A stretch of DNA of 60,785 bases, from contig JAAYNI010000030.1 in NCBI GenBank assembly GCA_012520995.1, forward strand, positions 1 to 60,785. The letters are read 5' to 3'. Made by a program: the position numbers and the translations under genes. Positions 4,815 through 55,331 of this stretch are shown piece after piece (within the stretch, counting starts at the first letter, position 1; each line of letters begins with the position of its first letter). The notes under the pieces are model-generated. The model searched no databases, was not told the DNA's origin, and worked only from the letters and a program-made list of their open reading frames with translations. The stretch comes from Candidatus Rifleibacteriota bacterium. GTDB taxonomy: Bacteria; Muiribacteriota; Ozemobacteria; Ozemobacterales; Ozemobacteraceae.

Positions 4815-5119
4815 ACTAGTGCTGTGTTTTGTCTAAAACTTTCCTATTTTGATATTATTCTAGTTAATAATGTCTTCATGGTTATCTGATACTGCTATCG
4901 CACAGTTACGAGTGATGAGTGGCGAGTGGCGAGTTGAATTGTTTAGCTCCGCCTAGCATCGAACATCAGCATCTGTCCTTAATCAGAGGCTAGGACAAAA
5001 ATTGTGATTATGCGGTAGCAGAATGCAATTTTTGCCCAATTTTGCCCTCATCTGTGTCCATCTGTGGATATAAATAAATGTACCCGATAACGAACAATTA
5101 GGTGCAACAGTCTACTAGT
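4815..5119 (+). repeat. MITE-like element, long form (copy A), filling the 4716-5262 gap
   Basis: No gene is supported in 4716-5262. The element runs from ACTAGTGCTGTG at the left to CAACAGTCTACTAGT at the right, about 305 bp. Its first 90 bases match the short form seen at 13338-13429 and 44301-44391, including TCATGGTTATCTGAT and a degenerate right end near 4900. Inside are GTGATGAGTGGCGAGTGGCG (from about 4912) and ATCTGTGTCCATCTGTGG (from 5050). A second left-end fragment, ACTAGTGTGACATCTAAAAC, starts at the right boundary (5114), and another phrase, TCTGTGTAATCTGTAGAT, is near 5182. This looks like nested or tandem copies. Confidence 0.75.
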
Positions 5120-5262
5120 GTGACATCTAAAACTTTCCTTTTCTAGCCACTGTAAACTGGCAACAACCCACTGTTTTAAAAGTCTGTGTAATCTGTAGAT
5201 GCCTTCTCCATTCCATTTTACTTCAATTTTTCGTATGATAATTGGAGAGGGGGGGAGGATTT

Positions 5263-13294: not shown

Positions 13295-13337
13295 AGGATA
13301 ATGAAGTTTAATACGCAACTTTTAGATGTTATACAAC

Positions 13338-13429
13338 ACTAGTGCGATTGTTGCATCAAATAACCATGAATAGTCCATGTTGACTGCTTGTCATTGAATA
13401 GAGAAGTTTTAGACAAAACAAAGCACTAG
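13338..13429 (-). repeat. MITE-like element, short form (copy B), supplying the uspA stop codon
   Basis: 92 bp between ACTAGTGC at the left and GCACTAG at the right. Read on the minus strand it matches copy E at 44301-44391, including a shared CATGGTTATTTGATGCA... segment. The bases just left of it (TTTTAGATGTTATACAAC) match the right end of the long form at 46285-46614, so this may be the remnant of two adjoining copies. The TAG stop of uspA (13428-13426) lies inside the terminal CTAG. Confidence 0.75.
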
Positions 13430-13890
13430 ATCGTTCTGGGCTGTTGCAAGAGGGTTTTTCCTCTGACATCGACTGTAAGAACTGAACATGGTGCTTTTCT
13501 TACCAGTTCATAGGTGATTCCGCCGAGCCAAGAATCTATAAAGCCAGTTTTTCCGTGGCTTCCTACCACAATTAGCGAGATGTCTTCTTTCTTAGCATAT
13601 TCTAAGATTTGTTTAGATACATCGCCGCTTCTGACTCGTTTAAGTATGGGCAGATCTTTGTAAGCTGCAGGCACAAACTCATCAAGCATTTTGGCTGCTT
13701 TGACTTCCCAAGATTTTGCCACGTTAAGGGGATCGCCTCCAATTGAAAGGCTTATAGTATCTTCCTCAACGACATGCAAAAGGTGAATTTCAGAGCCATA
13801 TTCACTTGCAAAAGATGCGGCATAGTCAAACGCCTGAGCTGAAGCGTCGGAAAAATCAATTGGAACTAAAATTTTTGCAATTTTCAACAT
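13426..13890 (-). CDS. Universal stress protein (UspA family)
   Basis: 154 residues, a single Usp domain. It begins ILVPIDFSDASAQAFDYAAS, with the Asp that contacts adenine in ATP-binding members, and has LHVVEED. The nucleotide loop is GSHGKTGFIDSWLGG, which keeps G-2x-G-9x-G but has Gly where the motif ends in Ser/Thr; the C-terminal strand is APCSVLTVDV. ATP binding is therefore likely but slightly atypical. It lies 13 bp after the TolB-like gene with a GAGAGGAAAAG ribosome site, so the two form an operon. The last residues (QQPRTI) and stop abut the repeat element, which may have altered the original C-terminus. Confidence 0.92.
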   Translation of the reverse strand: MLKIAKILVPIDFSDASAQAFDYAASFASEYGSEIHLLHVVEEDTISLSIGGDPLNVAKSWEVKAAKMLDEFVPAAYKDLPILKRVRSGDVSKQILEYAKKEDISLIVVGSHGKTGFIDSWLGGITYELVRKAPCSVLTVDVRGKTLLQQPRTI

Positions 13891-27515: not shown

Positions 27516-29186
27516 ATGAGAATGAAAAAAAAGTCTTCCATGACTCTCATTGAGTGGTTTTTTTTAAAAACCTCGAATACTCTCAGAGAGCATGGAACTT
27601 TTACTTTAGAAGATTTGAATTTTTCACTTCGCAAAGCAGGGTTGCCTGAAAGTTATCTTGACTTAGCTTCTAATTTGCCTGATACTTCTTTTCCTCTAAA
27701 ACTCTCTATAGATGGCTATATACCTGATCTTGAAAGCCAAGAGAGAAGTAAAAAACGAAAATTGGGTCTTTATTACACTCCTGCTGTTTTAGCAGAAAAC
27801 CTTTTGAAATTAGCTGAGTTTTCAGCAGAGACTAAAGTTTTGGATCCTGCTTGCGGTGACGGAGTCTTTTTACTGGAAGCAGCAAAAAGGCTTGCGCTCT
27901 ATAGTGATAAGCCGTTAGATAATTTGATCGGTTTTGATGTGGATCCTGCTGCCTTGTTTGTTTCTATGACCAGGCTTTTGTCAGCTTTTCCAAGACAAGG
28001 TTTTCCTAGGCTTTACAATAAAAATTTTCTGAAAAGCGATATCGAAGAAAAGTATGAGCTTGTTGTTGGAAATCCCCCTTATAAAGTCAACTTAGAAGAA
28101 GATGAAAAGCTTTTTTTACTTGAGAACTTTGAGACTGTTGAGGGCGAAAAAGATCTTTATATGTTTTTCTTGGAGAAATCTGCGAAGCTTTTAAAATCGA
28201 ATGGGCTGATGATGCTGATCACTCCAGATACTTGGCTTGTAAATCATCAAACCGGGAAGTTGCGCAACTATGTTTTTGAAAATTATATAGTTGAAAAACT
28301 TATTTTGCTTGAAAAAGGTTTTTTTAAAAAGGCTCCTGCTCTTTTACCAGCTGTAGCTGTTATACGCAACAGAAAGTCATCGCCTGATTTTAAAACAGAG
28401 CTTTTGGCTGGATGTGATGAAACGTTGAAGGCTGCAATCAAAACTGAGGCTTTGCAGAGACATTTTAGGGAAGAAACAGGTCTGAAAAATTCTTTGAGAC
28501 CTCCTGAAGTCAGAAAACTTCTTGAGTCTATGGAAAGCTATTCTCTGAAGTTGAGCGATGTTGCCAAGTTAGGAGTGGGCATACAAGAATCTGTCCGCAG
28601 AAAGGGCAGTGTTTCTAAATTTGTTCATGATGCTAAAAAGGCGGACAATTTTAAGCCTGTTCTGAGGGGAAGGGAAATATCTCCTTTTTCAATAAACTGG
28701 GAAGGCAAATACATAGATTACGGTGAGCATCTTGTTTACAGAGGTAAGCCTGAGATGTTTGAGGATGAAAAGATTCTCTATCAAAATATCCGCAATCAGT
28801 CTTTGAAAACTCGTATAGTTACGGCTTTGGACAGAAATGGCTTTTATTACAAGAATTCTCTTTCTTACATTCAAAGCTTTAATTCTGATTACAGCAATCT
28901 TTTTTTGACAGGCCTATTGAACAGTTTGCTTGTGAATGTTTGGTATGCTTCCAGTTTCCACAGTTTTCATATTACAGTTACCAGGATGGGGCAAATACCT
29001 TTGCCGCCTTATAATAAAACTCTTTTTACAAAAATTGAGAGTTGTGCTGAAAGACTTTTAACAGGCTTTGATGACAAAATTATGAATGACTTGAATAAAC
29101 TGGTTTGGCAGGCTTATTTCCCTGACTTGCCGGCGGATTTGCCTCTTTTGGAACGATTCTTGACAATCTCAGCTGAGTTATTCTGA
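27516..29186 (+). CDS. N6-adenine DNA methyltransferase, TaqI/Eco57I-like, apparently orphan
   Basis: 556 residues from the ATG at 27516; another ATG six bases later is possible and neither has a good ribosome site. SAM-binding motif I is VLDPACGDGVFLLEA (about residue 108), a later motif is IGFDVDPAALFVSM, and the catalytic motif IV is LVVGNPPYK (about 186). The C-terminal half carries a TaqI_C-like specificity region (LSDVAKLGVGIQESVRRKG, PVLRGREISPFSIN, ITVTRMGQIPLPPYN). N-terminal residues (EWFFLKTSNTLREHGTF) form a short helical domain. No endonuclease gene is beside it: the neighbours are a Wzz-like gene and rpoN. It may be an orphan regulatory methylase, or a combined type IIG-like protein whose nuclease part is too divergent to see. 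Confidence 0.82.
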   Translation: MRMKKKSSMTLIEWFFLKTSNTLREHGTFTLEDLNFSLRKAGLPESYLDLASNLPDTSFPLKLSIDGYIPDLESQERSKKRKLGLYYTPAVLAENLLKLAEFSAETKVLDPACGDGVFLLEAAKRLALYSDKPLDNLIGFDVDPAALFVSMTRLLSAFPRQGFPRLYNKNFLKSDIEEKYELVVGNPPYKVNLEEDEKLFLLENFETVEGEKDLYMFFLEKSAKLLKSNGLMMLITPDTWLVNHQTGKLRNYVFENYIVEKLILLEKGFFKKAPALLPAVAVIRNRKSSPDFKTELLAGCDETLKAAIKTEALQRHFREETGLKNSLRPPEVRKLLESMESYSLKLSDVAKLGVGIQESVRRKGSVSKFVHDAKKADNFKPVLRGREISPFSINWEGKYIDYGEHLVYRGKPEMFEDEKILYQNIRNQSLKTRIVTALDRNGFYYKNSLSYIQSFNSDYSNLFLTGLLNSLLVNVWYASSFHSFHITVTRMGQIPLPPYNKTLFTKIESCAERLLTGFDDKIMNDLNKLVWQAYFPDLPADLPLLERFLTISAELF

Positions 29187-29590
29187 AAAAACAGTGGGTT
29201 GTGGGTAGTGGATAGTGCGTAGAAAGACAACGAACAGCCGGTGATGAGTGGCGGGTGGCGAGCTTTAGTAGCGTGTAAAGTAGAGTGTGGAGTGTAAAGC
29301 AAATTAAAAATTAAAAAGTATAAGTTAGAAATAAATGTTTTAGTCTTTCTGCAGTTTCTGTCCTATTTTTTTTTTTTTGCTACCCCCTATCACCTGCTCC
29401 CTACTCTCTGATTTTAGGTATCTGTCTTTAATCAGCGGCTAGATCGACTGTTATGGATGTCAGTTCTTACTCGCCACCAGTCACTCGCAACGCGGCACTG
29501 ATTTTTAAGCTAGCTTAAAAATCCCATCTGTGTTCATCTGTGGATAGAAAAAAATCTGTCCGTAAACATTTAGATGTTACAGACTACTAG
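29187..29590. repeat. Mosaic repeat region (copy C) upstream of rpoN
   Basis: No gene is supported here. The right end, ATTTAGATGTTACAGACTACTAG, split into two recognisable parts (TTTAGATGTTA and ACTAG), matches right ends at 5119 and 46614; a clear left end is missing. Inside are GTGATGAGTGGCGGGTGGCG (29241), CTGCAGTTTCTGTCCTA (29349), the palindrome TTTTAAGCTAGCTTAAAA (29504) and ATCTGTGTTCATCTGTGG (29526), all shared with copies at 46285-46614 and 49351-49510. Confidence 0.65.
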
Positions 29591-31992: not shown

Positions 31993-34374
31993 TTGCCTAT
32001 TTCTCATCTTTACAGCCGAAATCCGCAAGAGAAAATAGCGGCTGTATACGAAATTTTATTCAATCGCCTTTATGAGGCTTGCCCTGAACTGAAAAAAGCG
32101 GCTTTTGCAGAGGAAGACGAAAAAATTGCTGTTCTTATGGTGCAAGTCTATATGACTTTGCAAACTTTTAAGAGAGATTCGGAAAAAGAACAGGCCATAT
32201 ATGCGTCTCTTGAGGCATTTGATCCTGAAGAAGAGAATTCTTTGAAATTGGATAAAAAACTTTGGGATTATTTGGAAAATAATGCCTCCAGCCGCTTGAT
32301 TAAAGATGTGCTCAAAGCTTTGCCTTCGGTCTTGTTAGACAGACAGGAAAAAGCTTTTGTGCTTTTTGCTTTGAATCACCAAGATCCTTCAGTCAGGTTT
32401 GTGGCTCTTGAAAATGCGGCTCAAAATGATGCTCCGGAGATTTTTTCAGCGATTTTGTCTTCTACCCTTGATAGGGATTTGAGCGTCTCGAAAAGAGCTT
32501 ATAACTTGCTTTCTCTAATGCCGCCAGCGTTTTTGTCTCGTTCCTTGGAAAACGCATTGAATTGCACGGATAGCAAAGTTCTTGATACGATTTCTTTGTT
32601 TTTGCCCAAGATCGCTACCCCTTCTCTTAAAGACACTCTAAGAAAAGCTTCTGTTCATCCTGAACGAAAAGTCAGAGAGAAGGGACTTGAGGCCTTGAAA
32701 ATATTAAGTTCTTCCGCAGAAACTTCTTCTGATTCAATTTTGAGCTCTGTTTCACATAAGATACCAGATTCTTCGGCTGCCGAATTTGTTTCAAAGCCTT
32801 CTGCTTCTTTGAAGCAGCCAGCTGTTAGTTCCTCTGCTCAGGAGATATTTGTACAAAAAGCTTTTGAGAAGAAAACTTATGAACGGCCGGCAGTAATCAA
32901 AATGTCTGACAGACTTTTAAAGAAAAGTTCTGAAGAAAAAGAGAAAAGCAATGTTCAAGCTTTTAGCATTTCTGAACCTGTGCAATTAGAAAAGCCAGAG
33001 GAGAATGTTACGCAAAGCAAAGCTGAAGCAGAGGCCTTGGAAAAACATAAAGAACAGATCTCTCAGCTTGCTGAGACAGAAGCATTTTCTTCCTCTTCTG
33101 ATGAATCAATATCTTTCTTAGAGGAAGACAAAGAAGCGCTTGTTGTGAATCATCAAGAACTTAACAATACACATAAGGAACTTTTTGAGGATTCTGAGCT
33201 CAATTCTGAAGCGGGAGATTTTCAAGAAACTTCTGACAGCTTGAGTTCACTTGGACTTCCGGAGGCATCAGATGTGTCCGGTATAGACGATATTCTCTCG
33301 CTCGGGGAGTTTATTGAAGCGGACGGAAGCCAAGATGATATTAATGTTCTTGATATTGCCCTTGGAGAATCGCTGAACTTAGTAGATGATAGCTCTGATT
33401 TGGAAAGTTCTATGAGTCTTGAGGAGCTGCCGAAGGTTTCTGTGGAATCAGCAAACTCAATATCTGATGAAGCCGAAGTTGCTTTTGTGCAATCTGACGA
33501 AAATGTTAATTTGAGCAAAGAGTCAAATCTTGAGGAAGAGTTCAAGGCGGAAAACGAGCTTGAGATTGGAGAGTCTCTTCAGCCATTTAAAGAGCCTGTT
33601 AAACTTCTCGGCAAATCTGATTTGAGAGAGAAGAAGATGGATTTAAAGATAAATCCTGCTGTTGCTTCAATTATTAAGTCATCTCCCTATTTTATCAGCA
33701 ACACGTTGGAGTTGCTTTATAAAGAAAAAGAACCTGAGCTTTGTGCTGAATATTTGAGAAATTTTGCTGTTTCTTTTGTCGCTTTTTTGGAGTTTACCTA
33801 CATGCAGAGCGCACTTTTTTACGGACAGCGTAGCCCTTTGCTGCTTGAAACTGCTAAGGGGATGTTGACCGGCAAGGCTGGAACTGCTTTGGCTTTTAGA
33901 AATATTCAAAATTATCTGGCGGCATTGCCTAGAAACACTGATGAGCCTTTTTTTACTTTCTCTATGGCTGCCAAGTTGTCTGAGAGAAGCGAAGATAATC
34001 CTCTTTTTCTTCTCAGAGAGCTCTTTGCGTTTTTAGAACAGCCATCAGAACAGACTCCTGAAAATTTGAAAGAGGCTGCGGAGGGAGTAATCAAAATATT
34101 ATCTGAATTTACGGCTTTGAAGAAAAATCAGATTCTTATAAAAGGCCGCAAGAATGGCAAGATAGTTTTTTGGGATTTATCCTCAAGGGTTCCAAAACAA
34201 ACTGGCGGCGGTATAATTGGCGATGATTTGCCTGAGATGGAACCTGTTTTGCTTTCCAAGGATGCCAGAGAAGCTTTGGGGCTTTTTCCTTACTTTAGCT
34301 TAGGGGAAAAAGGTCTTGTTTACAGTATTCCCAAGCAGTCTGAGCTTGAAGATCTTAAGTCCAGGTTTGAATGA
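31993..34374 (+). CDS. HEAT-like repeat protein with acidic linker and unknown C-terminal domain
   Basis: 793 residues from a TTG with CGGAAG about eight bases upstream. Residues about 1-240 are helical with HEAT-like units (NHQDPSVRFVALENAAQND, LDRDLSVSKRAYNLLSLM, SVHPERKVREKGLEALKIL). Residues about 250-540 are a low-complexity Ser/Glu/Asp linker, strongly acidic. The C-terminal 250 residues form a separate globular domain: NPAVASIIKSSPYFISNTLE, LRNFAVSFVAFLEFTYMQSA, KIVFWDLSSRVPKQTGGG. No signal peptide is seen, so it is probably cytoplasmic. The architecture suggests a scaffold; function unknown. The stop codon overlaps a repeat element. It follows the tRNA cluster terminator. Confidence 0.75.
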   Translation: MPISHLYSRNPQEKIAAVYEILFNRLYEACPELKKAAFAEEDEKIAVLMVQVYMTLQTFKRDSEKEQAIYASLEAFDPEEENSLKLDKKLWDYLENNASSRLIKDVLKALPSVLLDRQEKAFVLFALNHQDPSVRFVALENAAQNDAPEIFSAILSSTLDRDLSVSKRAYNLLSLMPPAFLSRSLENALNCTDSKVLDTISLFLPKIATPSLKDTLRKASVHPERKVREKGLEALKILSSSAETSSDSILSSVSHKIPDSSAAEFVSKPSASLKQPAVSSSAQEIFVQKAFEKKTYERPAVIKMSDRLLKKSSEEKEKSNVQAFSISEPVQLEKPEENVTQSKAEAEALEKHKEQISQLAETEAFSSSSDESISFLEEDKEALVVNHQELNNTHKELFEDSELNSEAGDFQETSDSLSSLGLPEASDVSGIDDILSLGEFIEADGSQDDINVLDIALGESLNLVDDSSDLESSMSLEELPKVSVESANSISDEAEVAFVQSDENVNLSKESNLEEEFKAENELEIGESLQPFKEPVKLLGKSDLREKKMDLKINPAVASIIKSSPYFISNTLELLYKEKEPELCAEYLRNFAVSFVAFLEFTYMQSALFYGQRSPLLLETAKGMLTGKAGTALAFRNIQNYLAALPRNTDEPFFTFSMAAKLSERSEDNPLFLLRELFAFLEQPSEQTPENLKEAAEGVIKILSEFTALKKNQILIKGRKNGKIVFWDLSSRVPKQTGGGIIGDDLPEMEPVLLSKDAREALGLFPYFSLGEKGLVYSIPKQSELEDLKSRFE

Positions 34375-34436
34375 CTAGTGCTGTGTTGCAACTAAAACTT
34401 CCCTATTTTGGTATCTGATTCTAACATAACAGCAAA
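34374..34436 (+). repeat. MITE-like element, left-end fragment (copy D)
   Basis: ACTAGTGCTGTGTTGCAACT followed by AAAACTTCCCTATTTTG matches the left ends at 4815, 44301 and 46285; the right end is absent. It begins on the last base of the preceding stop codon. Confidence 0.65.
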
Positions 34437-34445
34437 AAAAAAAGC

Positions 34446-34474
34446 TTGATAGCTGTCTTAGAATCCGGTAAAAT
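34446..34474 (+). promoter_or_regulatory. Promoter of tRNA-Leu
   Basis: TTGATA (34446-34451), 17-base spacer, TAAAAT (34469-34474), ten bases before the tRNA. Confidence 0.75.
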
Positions 34475-34484
34475 TCACGAACAT

Positions 34485-43269: not shown

Positions 43270-44301
43270 ATGTCAAAGAGATTTTCTTTTCTTTTAATTG
43301 CCTGTGTATTTTTCTCTCTGCTTTCCCAAGCTTATGCAGCTGAAATAACAGATATGACTGGCAGAACTGTCGAGCTGCCGGAACAAATTTTTAAAGTTTG
43401 TCCGGATGGACAGTCAGCGGTTGTTATAATGCACAGTCTTTCTCTGGATATGCTTACCTCTTGGTCATTTGATTTGCTTGAGCAAGAAAAAATATATATT
43501 CCGTCAAAATATCATGATCTTCCTGTTACAGGTTTGCTTTCGGGACAAAAGGTTACGGGCAATCTCGAGAAGGTGATGCTTTTGAAGCCGGATATTATTC
43601 TTTCAGCTGTTGATTTGGGAAATGCAGGCGGACATCAAAAAATGATTCAAGATGCGGATAATTTACAGCGTAAAACAGGGATTCCTGTTGTGATTGTTAC
43701 TTCTGAGATAAGACGAGCCGGAGAAGTTTTCACCTTTTTAGGAAAAATCTTACATCTAGAAGAAAAGGCAGGTCATTTGGCTTCCTATTGCAATCGTGTT
43801 ATCTCTTATGCGGATGAGCAAAGGGCAAAGATCGACGTTCCTGTGACTGTTTATTATGCCCAAGGAAAGCGCGGTTTAATGACGGCTCCAAAAGGCAGCT
43901 CTCACGGAGAAATAATAGAATTGGTCGGAGGCAGGAATGTGGCTGATTTCAAGGGCGACATCAGAAACAGGACTGCTGTTAATCTGGAACAGGTTTTGCT
44001 TTGGAATCCGCAGGTTATTTTGTTGGCAGACCGTCTTTATAGCGCATTTCCAAAAACAGATGAACCGTCACAGGTTTTAAGAGATTTCTCGCCGCTTTGG
44101 GAAAGAACTGAAGCGATGAAAAATAGAAGGGTATATTTCGTGCCTTGCAAACCATATAATTGGCTTGATATGCCGCCTTCTGTTAATAGAATTCTTGGAA
44201 TTCTTTGGCTTGGCAAAAAACTTTATCCGCAATTTTATAGATTTGATTATGAAAGTGAAATAAAAGATTATTTCGGGCTCTTTTATAATTATGAACTATA
44301 A
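43270..44301 (+). CDS. Periplasmic substrate-binding protein of the FecCD-type importer
   Basis: 343 residues. The signal peptide SFLLIACVFFSLLSQAYAAE is probably cleaved after AYA; an internal LIAC resembles a lipobox but lies inside the hydrophobic core, so lipidation is less likely. The mature part starts ITDMTGRTVELPEQIFKVCP, typical of class III iron or cobalamin binding proteins. VMLLKPDIILSAVDLG, EIIELVGGRNVADFKGD and LEQVLLWNPQVILLADR are other family blocks. The long linker helix between lobes fits LEEKAGHLASYCNRVISY. The ligand (siderophore, haem, cobalamin or other metal chelate) is not decided by sequence. The stop codon's last base is the first base of a repeat element. Confidence 0.88.
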   Translation: MSKRFSFLLIACVFFSLLSQAYAAEITDMTGRTVELPEQIFKVCPDGQSAVVIMHSLSLDMLTSWSFDLLEQEKIYIPSKYHDLPVTGLLSGQKVTGNLEKVMLLKPDIILSAVDLGNAGGHQKMIQDADNLQRKTGIPVVIVTSEIRRAGEVFTFLGKILHLEEKAGHLASYCNRVISYADEQRAKIDVPVTVYYAQGKRGLMTAPKGSSHGEIIELVGGRNVADFKGDIRNRTAVNLEQVLLWNPQVILLADRLYSAFPKTDEPSQVLRDFSPLWERTEAMKNRRVYFVPCKPYNWLDMPPSVNRILGILWLGKKLYPQFYRFDYESEIKDYFGLFYNYEL

Positions 44302-44391
44302 CTAGTGCTGTGTTGCAGCTAAAAGTTGCTTATTCAAAGAAAAGCGAGTCAAGGAGCTATTCATGGTTATTTGATGCAGCCGCCGCACTAG
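44301..44391 (+). repeat. MITE-like element, short form (copy E)
   Basis: 91 bp from ACTAGTGCTGTGTTGCAGCT to GCACTAG, the best-preserved short copy. It pairs with the copy at 13338-13429 along its whole length. The first base is shared with the TAA stop at 44299-44301. The remaining gap 44392-44585 holds AATTGTTTAG (shared with the element at 4815-5119), a TTTGTGTGTTTCGTGG-type phrase (about 44509) and CGCCACTCATCAC (about 44552), but no gene. Confidence 0.75.
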
Positions 44392-44585
44392 AGTGGGTAG
44401 TGAAATTGTTTAGAACTCAATACGATGAAACTGATGCCTGCTCTGCCTGTCAGTGTATTCAGTTTGTTCTGTAGTTTTATAAAGTTTTTTTGGAGTTTTT
44501 TCGTATTTTTGTGTGTTTCGTGGCTTCAAAAGGTATTTGTTTTTTGCTACTCGCCACTCATCACTTGCTAGGATTCAAAAGTAAT

Positions 44586-46289
44586 ATGGATTATTTTTCA
44601 CTAGAAAGACATATAAATGAGCTTAACTCAGCTTTGCCGAAAGCATTTCTTGAGTCTGTTTCAAGCGCTTTAAGCAGAACCTTTGCTTTAGGTTTTAAAT
44701 CAGGCTCGGAATATTTTTCTTTGTATTTAGCCCTTGACGGAGTTTTACAAGGTCCAAGACTGAAAAGAGGAAAGCTTGAATCTTTCTCTGACAGTGTTTT
44801 CTCAGAGCGTGTTTATAAACTGCTTTCAAACGCTTTTTTGGCTGAGATGGGAATGCTTCGAAATCCGGAACTGCCTTTAGCACGGGACAGAATTATTTTT
44901 CTGCGCTTTATTGCAGCAGACCCGTATTTTGGAATAAAGAAAACCTTTTTTTTGATATGCGAATTTACTGGTCGCAATTCCAATATATTTTTATCTGATT
45001 CCGATATGATTATTTTAGAGGCCTATGGCAGAACTGCAAACAATTCGCAAGGAAAGGCTTATGTTTTTCCTTGCTCAGAAGTTAAGGCTGATCCTTTGCT
45101 GTTTTCGCCAGAGGAACTGGCAAATTTTTGGACTAAACATTCATTTGGTGACTCTTCAGAACTTTTGGCAGGGATAACCAATAAAATTCTAAAAGAAGCT
45201 GTGTACAGAAGCAAATGCGAGAAGAAACTTCCTATTAGGGTTGCAAATGAGCTTTTGGCTTTCCTCAAGGAATACAGGGATGAAGGAGCTTATCTTTACC
45301 TGAAAAATAAACGTGTCGCCTATGTAAGTTCTGTCAACTTTTCTCATATGGAAGAACATGAGATAATTGCTATCAATTCGATTAATGATGCTCTTTTGCA
45401 GGCTGCTTTAATGAATGTTTTGCCGAAAGCTCTCTCTGATGAAAAGGGTAAGCTTCTAAAGTATATAGAAACAAAAATTCAAGCTGTAAAAAAGCTTATT
45501 CAAGAGCAAAATGAATTGCTTGAACTCTATTCTGACCATGAAACGGTGCAACATAAAGGGGAGCTTATCAACGCCAATTTATATCAGATTAAGCCTGGCA
45601 GCAAACAAGTCGCAGTTTATGATTGGTTGTCGGACAAAACTGAACTGATAGAACTGGATCCTATGAAAACGCCTCATGCAAATTCTGAATATTTTTTTAA
45701 ACAGGCTAAAAAGTATAAAAGGGGAATAGAAGCGGCAAAAAAAAGAATTGAAGAACTTGATTCAGAGCTTTCATGGCTAAAAGAGCAGAAATGGTATGCT
45801 TCTGAAGCTGAAGATATAACTTCGCCTGTTTTTGCTGAGTTGAAACAATATATTTTGCCTCAGAAGAAGAAAAAATCTTCTAAGAGGGATAAAAACAAAA
45901 GCATTTCCAGAAGATCTGTTTATAAAATAGAGCCGGTTTTTTCCAATGATAATGCAGTCTATTATGCAGGTAAAAATGCTCTGGAAAATGATTTCGTCAC
46001 CTTTAAGTTGGCTAAATCAGAGGATTATTGGTTTCATGCTAAGGAAGTTCCAGGTTCGCATGTCATTATGAAGTTAAAAGATAAAAACACTGTTCCGGAA
46101 GATGACAGTCTGATTATAGGGGCTTTATTGGCGGCTAGAATGAGCTTTTCCAAAAACAGCCAGAATGTACCTGTAGACTATACAAAGGCATCAAATGTCA
46201 GGCGAATTGCCGGAGGAAAGACAGGACAAGTTTACTATACTCACTATAAAACACTGTATGTGAACCCTTTAGAGCTCACGCATAACTAG
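44586..46289 (+). CDS. rqcH: RqcH/NFACT-family ribosome quality-control protein
   Basis: 567 residues from the ATG at 44586; the upstream in-frame codons lie in repeats. The NFACT-N domain (MDYFSLERHINELNSALPKA, LARDRIIFLRF with the conserved Asp-Arg pair, FLICEFTGRNSNIFLSDSD) is followed by helical and coiled-coil segments (about 310-360, 410-440). Then comes the NFACT-R domain at the C-terminus (KSEDYWFHAKEVPGSHVIMK, IIGALLAARMSFSKNSQNVP, VDYTKASNVRRIAGGKTGQV). RqcH homologues bind the 50S-peptidyl-tRNA complex and add C-terminal alanine tails to stalled chains; older names are FbpA/YloA. The stop TAG lies inside the left end of a repeat element. Confidence 0.92.
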   Translation: MDYFSLERHINELNSALPKAFLESVSSALSRTFALGFKSGSEYFSLYLALDGVLQGPRLKRGKLESFSDSVFSERVYKLLSNAFLAEMGMLRNPELPLARDRIIFLRFIAADPYFGIKKTFFLICEFTGRNSNIFLSDSDMIILEAYGRTANNSQGKAYVFPCSEVKADPLLFSPEELANFWTKHSFGDSSELLAGITNKILKEAVYRSKCEKKLPIRVANELLAFLKEYRDEGAYLYLKNKRVAYVSSVNFSHMEEHEIIAINSINDALLQAALMNVLPKALSDEKGKLLKYIETKIQAVKKLIQEQNELLELYSDHETVQHKGELINANLYQIKPGSKQVAVYDWLSDKTELIELDPMKTPHANSEYFFKQAKKYKRGIEAAKKRIEELDSELSWLKEQKWYASEAEDITSPVFAELKQYILPQKKKKSSKRDKNKSISRRSVYKIEPVFSNDNAVYYAGKNALENDFVTFKLAKSEDYWFHAKEVPGSHVIMKLKDKNTVPEDDSLIIGALLAARMSFSKNSQNVPVDYTKASNVRRIAGGKTGQVYYTHYKTLYVNPLELTHN

Positions 46290-46614
46290 TGCTTTGTTGC
46301 AGCTAAAACTTTCCTGTAAGCCTTTCAAAATTCACAAGACAATATCCGCTTATAAGATCGTGCCGTGATGAGTGGTGTGTGGTGGGTGGCGAGCTTAATT
46401 AAATTAGAAATTTTAAAGTATCAATTAGAAATAAATCTTTTAGTCTTTTCTGCAGTTTCTGCCTGTGTCTTGGGTTTTGCCCTTTCTATCCCCTACGCCC
46501 TGCTCCCTGATTTTAAGCTATGCTTAAAATCTCATCTGTGTGAATCTGTGTCCATCTGTGGATAGAAAAAAATCTGTCCGATAATAAACATTTTAGCTGT
46601 TATACAGCACTAGT
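46285..46614 (+). repeat. MITE-like element, long form (copy F), best-preserved
   Basis: 330 bp. The two ends match as inverted repeats over 24 bases with four differences: left ACTAGTGCTT...CAGCTAAAA, right (inverted) ACTAGTGCTG...CAGCTAAAA. Inside are GTGATGAGTGGTGTGTGGTG, AAATTAGAAATTTTAAAGTA, CTGCAGTTTCTGCCTGTG, the palindrome TTTTAAGCTATGCTTAAAA (46513) and ATCTGTGTCCATCTGTGG. The gap 46290-46697 contains no gene besides this and the trxA promoter. Confidence 0.8.
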
Positions 46615-49328: not shown

Positions 49329-49350
49329 ACAAATTTTTACTTCGCGATGG

Positions 49351-49510
49351 GATTTTAAGCATAGCTTAAAATCAGGGAGTAGGGTGTGGGGTAGCAAAAC
49401 CCCAAATAAAGGCATAGGACAGAAACTGCAGAAAAGACTAAAACATTTATTTCTAATTTATACTTTTTAATTTCTAATTTATTCTGATACCGCCACTCAT
49501 CACTGGTGCG
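49351..49510 (-). repeat. Mosaic repeat region (copy G), inverted
   Basis: The gap 49329-49574 has no gene. In reverse orientation it carries the interior blocks of the long form: palindrome TTTTAAGCATAGCTTAAAA, GGGAGTAGGGTGTGGGGTAG, CAGAAACTGCAGAAAAGACT, AAACATTTATTTCTAATTTA and CGCCACTCATCAC. No ACTAGTGC ends are visible. Confidence 0.65.
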
Positions 49511-55120: not shown

Positions 55121-55170
55121 AGCTGTAGTCTGGTACATCTTTTTCTATCCACAGATTACGCAGATATCAG

Positions 55171-55218
55171 AAGGCAATGCTAAAAATTACAGAATATAAT
55201 TTTTAGCATTGCCTTTTT
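55171..55218. terminator. Terminator after aspS
   Basis: Perfect 18-bp inverted repeat (55171-55188 and 55198-55215, core GGCAATGCTAAAAATT) with T-run on the plus side. The flanking ATCTGCGTAATCTGTGGATA phrase is on the minus strand at 55146-55165. Confidence 0.85.
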
Positions 55219-55331
55219 AAAGCACAGAGAATATTGGTTATTTATCAATATCTCAAAGCAATTAACAGTTTCAGCGATTGAGTTTAAACAATTCCACTGT
55301 TCCCGGTTCACTGAGGACTCTTCACTGTTTG

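Follow-up and report, generated by a model that had tools for sequence, protein, structure and literature searches.

The BOX elements of Streptococcus pneumoniae are modular, composite intergenic repeats that are over-represented between convergent genes, and in 36 cases they encode the stop codon of the upstream gene with no evident truncation (PMC3049150). GTAG REPs adjoin the 3' ends of genes, most of them within 20 bp of stop codons in convergent gaps, and a REP terminus often serves as the TAG stop of an ORF beside it (PMC3733652). In Coxiella burnetii, QMITE1 and QMITE2 overlap functional genes solely at the 3' ends, for a reason that the authors call unknown (PMC5896051). A preference of IS630 for the TA in CTAG has been reported, as stated in the title of Tenzen and Ohtsubo 1991 cited in PMC2170065.

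The repeat family described here comes from a single metagenome-assembled genome of Candidatus Rifleibacteriota (2.84 Mb, 101 contigs, 96% complete), of which the window, that is, the whole stretch of 60,785 nucleotides that was analysed, is contig 89. The best protein matches suggest a position near Candidatus Riflebacteria. The terminal inverted repeats (TIRs) of the family read CTAGTGC...GCACTAG. In behaviour, which is what was compared rather than module sequences, the family is like BOX in forming modular composites that favor convergent gaps and in supplying stop codons. BOX, however, has boxA, boxB and boxC modules and another host, whereas the present family nearly always supplies one and the same stop, the TAG within the terminal CTAG; also unlike BOX, most stop-facing ends of the present family are at the stop codon or within 10 nt of it. 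GTAG REPs are 20–40 bp hairpins tied to Y1 (RAYT) transposases, whereas the units seen here measure about 77–92 bp, with composites of several hundred bp, and have true terminal inverted repeats; the Y1 transposase (PF01797) is absent from the genome. Membership of the GTAG REPs was thus rejected both on length (77–92 nt compared to a palindrome of 20–40 bp) and on Y1. QMITE overlaps range from 1 to 50 bp, in contrast to those of the present family, which are exact and are explained by the CTAG.

MITEs of the IS630/Tc1-mariner type (RUP, ISY100) have TIR ends and a terminal TA as in the present family, and the CTAG preference is as for IS630. The TA target, often in CTAG, of IS630-mobilized MITEs is also seen here, in that TA is conserved in about 95% and the outer C in 89% of element ends as scored with a weight matrix (PWM). 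The link to IS630 is nevertheless one of analogy, because the IS630-type transposase DDE_3 (PF13358) is absent from this 96% complete genome, where a partner could have been lost or left unassembled, and the family was not classed as an IS630-mobilized MITE on that ground. The only DDE_Tnp_1 (PF01609) match in the genome lies in stretch L171 (contig 93, 4707–5195); it was considered as an IS4/IS5-type partner and rejected, as the inverted repeats near it read CTGTTGAACATT and not CTAGTGC. Among other genomes, the TIR pattern has no match in 95, of which 23 belong to the same family, the 90-bp module at 44302–44391 has none in 21 family genomes, and exact scans of genome-contig and viral-contig collections returned no element matches. 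No further genome from this genus was encountered. Two further assignments were set aside: an intrinsic terminator or Rfam RNA element, as there is no terminator enrichment and tRNAs alone match in the window, and, by inference, integron attC-like sites, as the copies lie scattered beside unrelated, partly housekeeping genes and do not form a cassette array. The repeats are short, non-coding and multi-copy and carry terminal inverted repeats, as do MITEs in the general sense. With no cognate transposase found among DDE_3, Y1 and DDE_Tnp_1, the family is best called MITE-like; it behaves like the known gene-end repeats, but the IS630-type and Y1 transposases are missing and the units are too long for REPs.

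The smallest unit is a module of 77–92 nt with CTAGTGC and GCACTAG ends, of which there are 27 complete copies, and the module at 44302–44391 is matched 42 times within its own genome. Solo modules that lack a tail occur in stretches L060 and L100. Larger elements carry extra common modules on the right side and reach several hundred bases in total, with boundaries that are fuzzy on the less conserved side. The inner modules GAGTGGCGAGTGG, CTCCCTACGCCCTAC and CATCTGTGTCCATCTGTGGATAG recur in either orientation and in changing order across many gaps, in the window at 29187–29590, 46370–46600, 49346–49505 and 55140–55304, and the larger elements look like mosaics. CTAG is present at both ends of the elements, and elements that adjoin head to head have a single CTAG in common (L075, L081, L086, L089, L093 and L096, and position 13339 of the window). 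Inspection by eye of a few complete copies revealed no direct repeats outside CTAG, and in the flanks of element ends nothing is conserved beyond A-rich sequence plus CTAG. Several contigs start within an element (L056, L057, L067, L073 and L095) and others end within one (L072, L086, L088, L090, L091 and L096). Since so many contigs begin or end in this way, further copies have probably been lost in assembly gaps.

Table 1 Repeat elements and host genes in the window.
Feature	Position	Strand	Remarks
Element in divergent gap	4816–5118	+	Not at a stop; right CTAG 5115–5118 common with a further partial element
Second element end	13320–13342	−	Adjoins the module at 13339–13429; CTAG 13339–13342 common to both
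Palindromic-ended module, 91 bp	13339–13429	−	CTAGTGC...GCACTAG; TAG 13428–13426 is the usp stop; left gene offset −3
Host gene, universal stress protein (PF00582)	13426–13890	−	Match runs almost to the end of the profile; stop TAG inside CTAG
Degenerate composite element	29187–29590	+	After methyltransferase gene TGA 29184–29186 and before the next gene; right CTAG 29587–29590
Host gene, HEAT-repeat protein	31993–34374	+	Stop TGA abuts element
Left end of truncated element	34375–34402	+	Directly after HEAT-repeat gene TGA 34372–34374
Host gene, periplasmic binding protein (PF01497)	43270–44301	+	Stop TAA abuts element
Complete module, 90 bp	44302–44391	+	CTAG at both ends; directly after binding-protein TAA 44299–44301
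Trailing repeat modules of composite element	44392–44585	+	Reach the rqcH start; right boundary inexact
Host gene, rqcH/NFACT (PF05833, PF05670)	44586–46289	+	Stop TAG from the element's CTAG; C-terminal core intact
Complete element, 328 bp	46286–46613	+	CTAG 46286–46289 to CTAG 46610–46613; TAG 46287–46289 is the rqcH stop

The features of the window are collected in Table 1. According to the initial annotation, four of the five clear left ends overlap the stop codon of the upstream gene, and in two cases the element's own CTAG supplies the stop. The latter holds at usp (CTAG 13426–13429, minus strand) and at rqcH (CTAG 46286–46289). The overlap is likewise real at these two genes, where the TAG lies in the CTAG, but not at the other two, since the TGA of the HEAT-repeat gene and the TAA of the binding-protein gene abut the element with no base between. 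The remaining left end, at 4816, is in a divergent gap with the nearest gene start 101 nt away. Between the stop codon of the HEAT-repeat gene and a tRNA-Leu gene (34375–34484), only a truncated left end is found; a right end was looked for and none is present before the tRNA-Leu gene at 34484. A deletion that extended to the tRNA promoter may have removed the rest of this element.

To map the copies, the genome was searched with two TIR patterns, allowing up to three mismatches, which gave 65 and 53 matches, partly at the same places. The 61 stretches around these matches and the window amount to 724 kb, from which all end counts are taken, and 20 control stretches add 398 kb, for about 1.1 Mb of sequence altogether. 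The fetched stretches are not a random genome sample, because they were chosen around elements, and for the same reason absolute occupancy rates in them are not estimates for the genome. A PWM built from element ends finds about 120 repeat ends in the fetched stretches and the window and zero matches in reversed sequence. Genes were called with a home-made dicodon model. Strong ends that are not part of a junction number 81, and 57 of these face the 3' end of a gene and 24 a gene start. In 34 of the 57 stop-facing ends the TAG of the terminal CTAG is the in-frame stop codon (offset −3), a few of these copies reading TTAG or ATAG in place of CTAG. The other stop-facing ends lie at +1 (7 ends), at +2 to +10 (8), beyond +10 (7) or inside the gene at −20 (1). 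None of the 24 start-facing ends is closer than 17 nt to the start.

Placement near stop codons is far from uniform: 7.8% of ends would be expected within 10 nt, and the observed excess has P = 2e-41. When genes of at least 150 aa are considered, 43 of 49 element ends are at the stop or within 10 nt of it, whereas free CTAGs that face the stops of such genes are found 21 times at −3, 10 times at 1–10 and 90 times beyond (Fisher odds ratio for near vs far 20.8, P = 8e-14). Convergent gaps alone, in which promoters are not at risk, give an odds ratio of 5 (P = 0.005). Element-like sequence is found in 54 of 90 convergent, 101 of 668 co-directional and 22 of 86 divergent gaps. With copies thus mapped against random gap placement over about 40% of the genome, the enrichment at stop codons noticed in the window holds and is stronger than in the window itself. 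Ends lie equally close to the stop whether they are well preserved or degenerate.

One element supplies the stops of both genes, through its two terminal TAGs, in each of four convergent pairs (L050, L060, L077 and L094). The pair in L060 is separated by a solo 92-bp module (5123–5214) in which the TAGs of the terminal CTAGs are the two stops. At L048 14129–14132 and L096 3192–3195, element-free convergent genes overlap by one CTAG that stops both, and these places look like unoccupied target sites. At L080 4766–5116 an element gives the TAG stop of a gene for a Cas6-like CRISPR endoribonuclease.

There is no visible truncation of the host proteins. RqcH has a complete core up to VNP, and in relatives the protein ends about 2–20 residues further on, with a tail that varies among them. 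Usp is matched by PF00582 to near its end. RibF is matched over residues 13–313 of 321 and almost to the end of the profile; for the NnrD-type Carb_kinase the match reaches residue 505 of 514, and for UDG residue 309 of 321.

These results are probably explained by a MITE-like family that inserts at CTAG, with purifying selection then removing harmful copies and gene ends possibly being somewhat preferred in addition. An element would go into a palindromic CTAG, and each of its ends would then carry CTAG, or TA at the minimum; such an event would involve duplication of the CTAG or TA and a transposase that may since have been lost. In a gene ending NNC-TAG, insertion would rebuild the stop codon exactly and keep the frame, and in a CTAG common to two convergent genes it would preserve both stops. 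Insertion into a CTAG a few nucleotides past any stop would be equally harmless. Copies inserted within genes or near starts would be lost by selection, and a preference for gene ends may be added to this. The host genes are most likely unharmed because insertion into CTAG leaves the TAG stop intact. The idea, put forward from the window, that stops of the TA(G) type are preferred as targets gives the best fit once it is refined: the target appears to be the palindrome CTAG, as suggested by the conservation of the outer C and by the single CTAG common to elements at junctions.

Simple selection may not suffice, because CTAGs near stops are about 5 times (as an odds ratio) more occupied even in convergent gaps. 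It is possible, if rather unlikely, that the insertion machinery prefers gene 3' ends in addition to CTAG, guided by sequence, by the structure of the DNA or by a link to transcription or translation, with gene ends serving as a safe harbor. The raised occupancy of stop-near CTAGs, in convergent gaps as well as overall, is in line with such a preference, and so are the seven ends at exactly +1 and the equal closeness to stops of preserved and degenerate ends; no gradual loss of badly placed copies can be seen, because proximity is independent of end degeneration. However, none of the obvious types of known transposase is present, the conservation of flanks is limited to A-rich sequence plus CTAG, and gap sites far from stops may carry terminators and hence be selected against, given that 48% of free convergent gene ends show terminator-like signals. 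We are doubtful that the machinery seeks stop codons beyond CTAG, possibly sensing the ends of transcripts or of translation, with a transposase outside IS630 (DDE_3), DDE_Tnp_1 and Y1. Selection for a function at the 3' end, which the initial annotation had offered as the other explanation, would mean that elements are kept since their transcripts end, stabilize or process the upstream mRNA. The share of convergent gaps that contain elements (54 of 90), TIRs that are able to pair in RNA and a slight excess of the sense orientation in co-directional gaps (45 sense vs 26 antisense) would suit it. Nevertheless, both orientations are found and the bias is weak, terminator-like signals occur in 14–16% of elements compared to 22–48% of free gaps, fold z-scores show no difference from those of element-free gaps (P = 0.53), and Rfam matches in the window are tRNAs only. 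A conserved 3'-end function thus has no support and we judge it quite improbable, though effects on particular genes are possible.

Truncation or decay would place the stops by another route, in which an insertion in the 3' coding sequence or a deletion made the first in-frame stop within the element the new stop of the gene. One end (L068 6932) does use the TAA at −20, and a short loss from RqcH is possible given the variable tail among its relatives. Random cutting of genes is unlikely, however, because near-equal use of the two stops would be expected, whereas the TAA at element positions 19–21 (offset −20) is used once and the TAG at −3 34 times, an excess of 34:1. Moreover, conserved domains reach near the C-terminus in most genes tested, and ends 1–10 nt past intact TAA or TGA stops are left unexplained; truncation is accordingly very improbable as the general cause. 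Hardly any weight can be given to an artefact of gene calling or chance. It would have to arise from the home-made caller and the single metagenome-assembled genome, but the result stands for genes of at least 150 aa, the stops were taken straight from the sequence, and named families confirm the reading frames.

So exact a placement suggests a simple rule, that a palindromic CTAG target which is rebuilt upon insertion spares the TAG stop of one gene or of both convergent genes. Genomes that carry repeats of this sort would allow the rule to be examined, and it is relevant to the question of how selfish DNA may spread cheaply through compact genomes.
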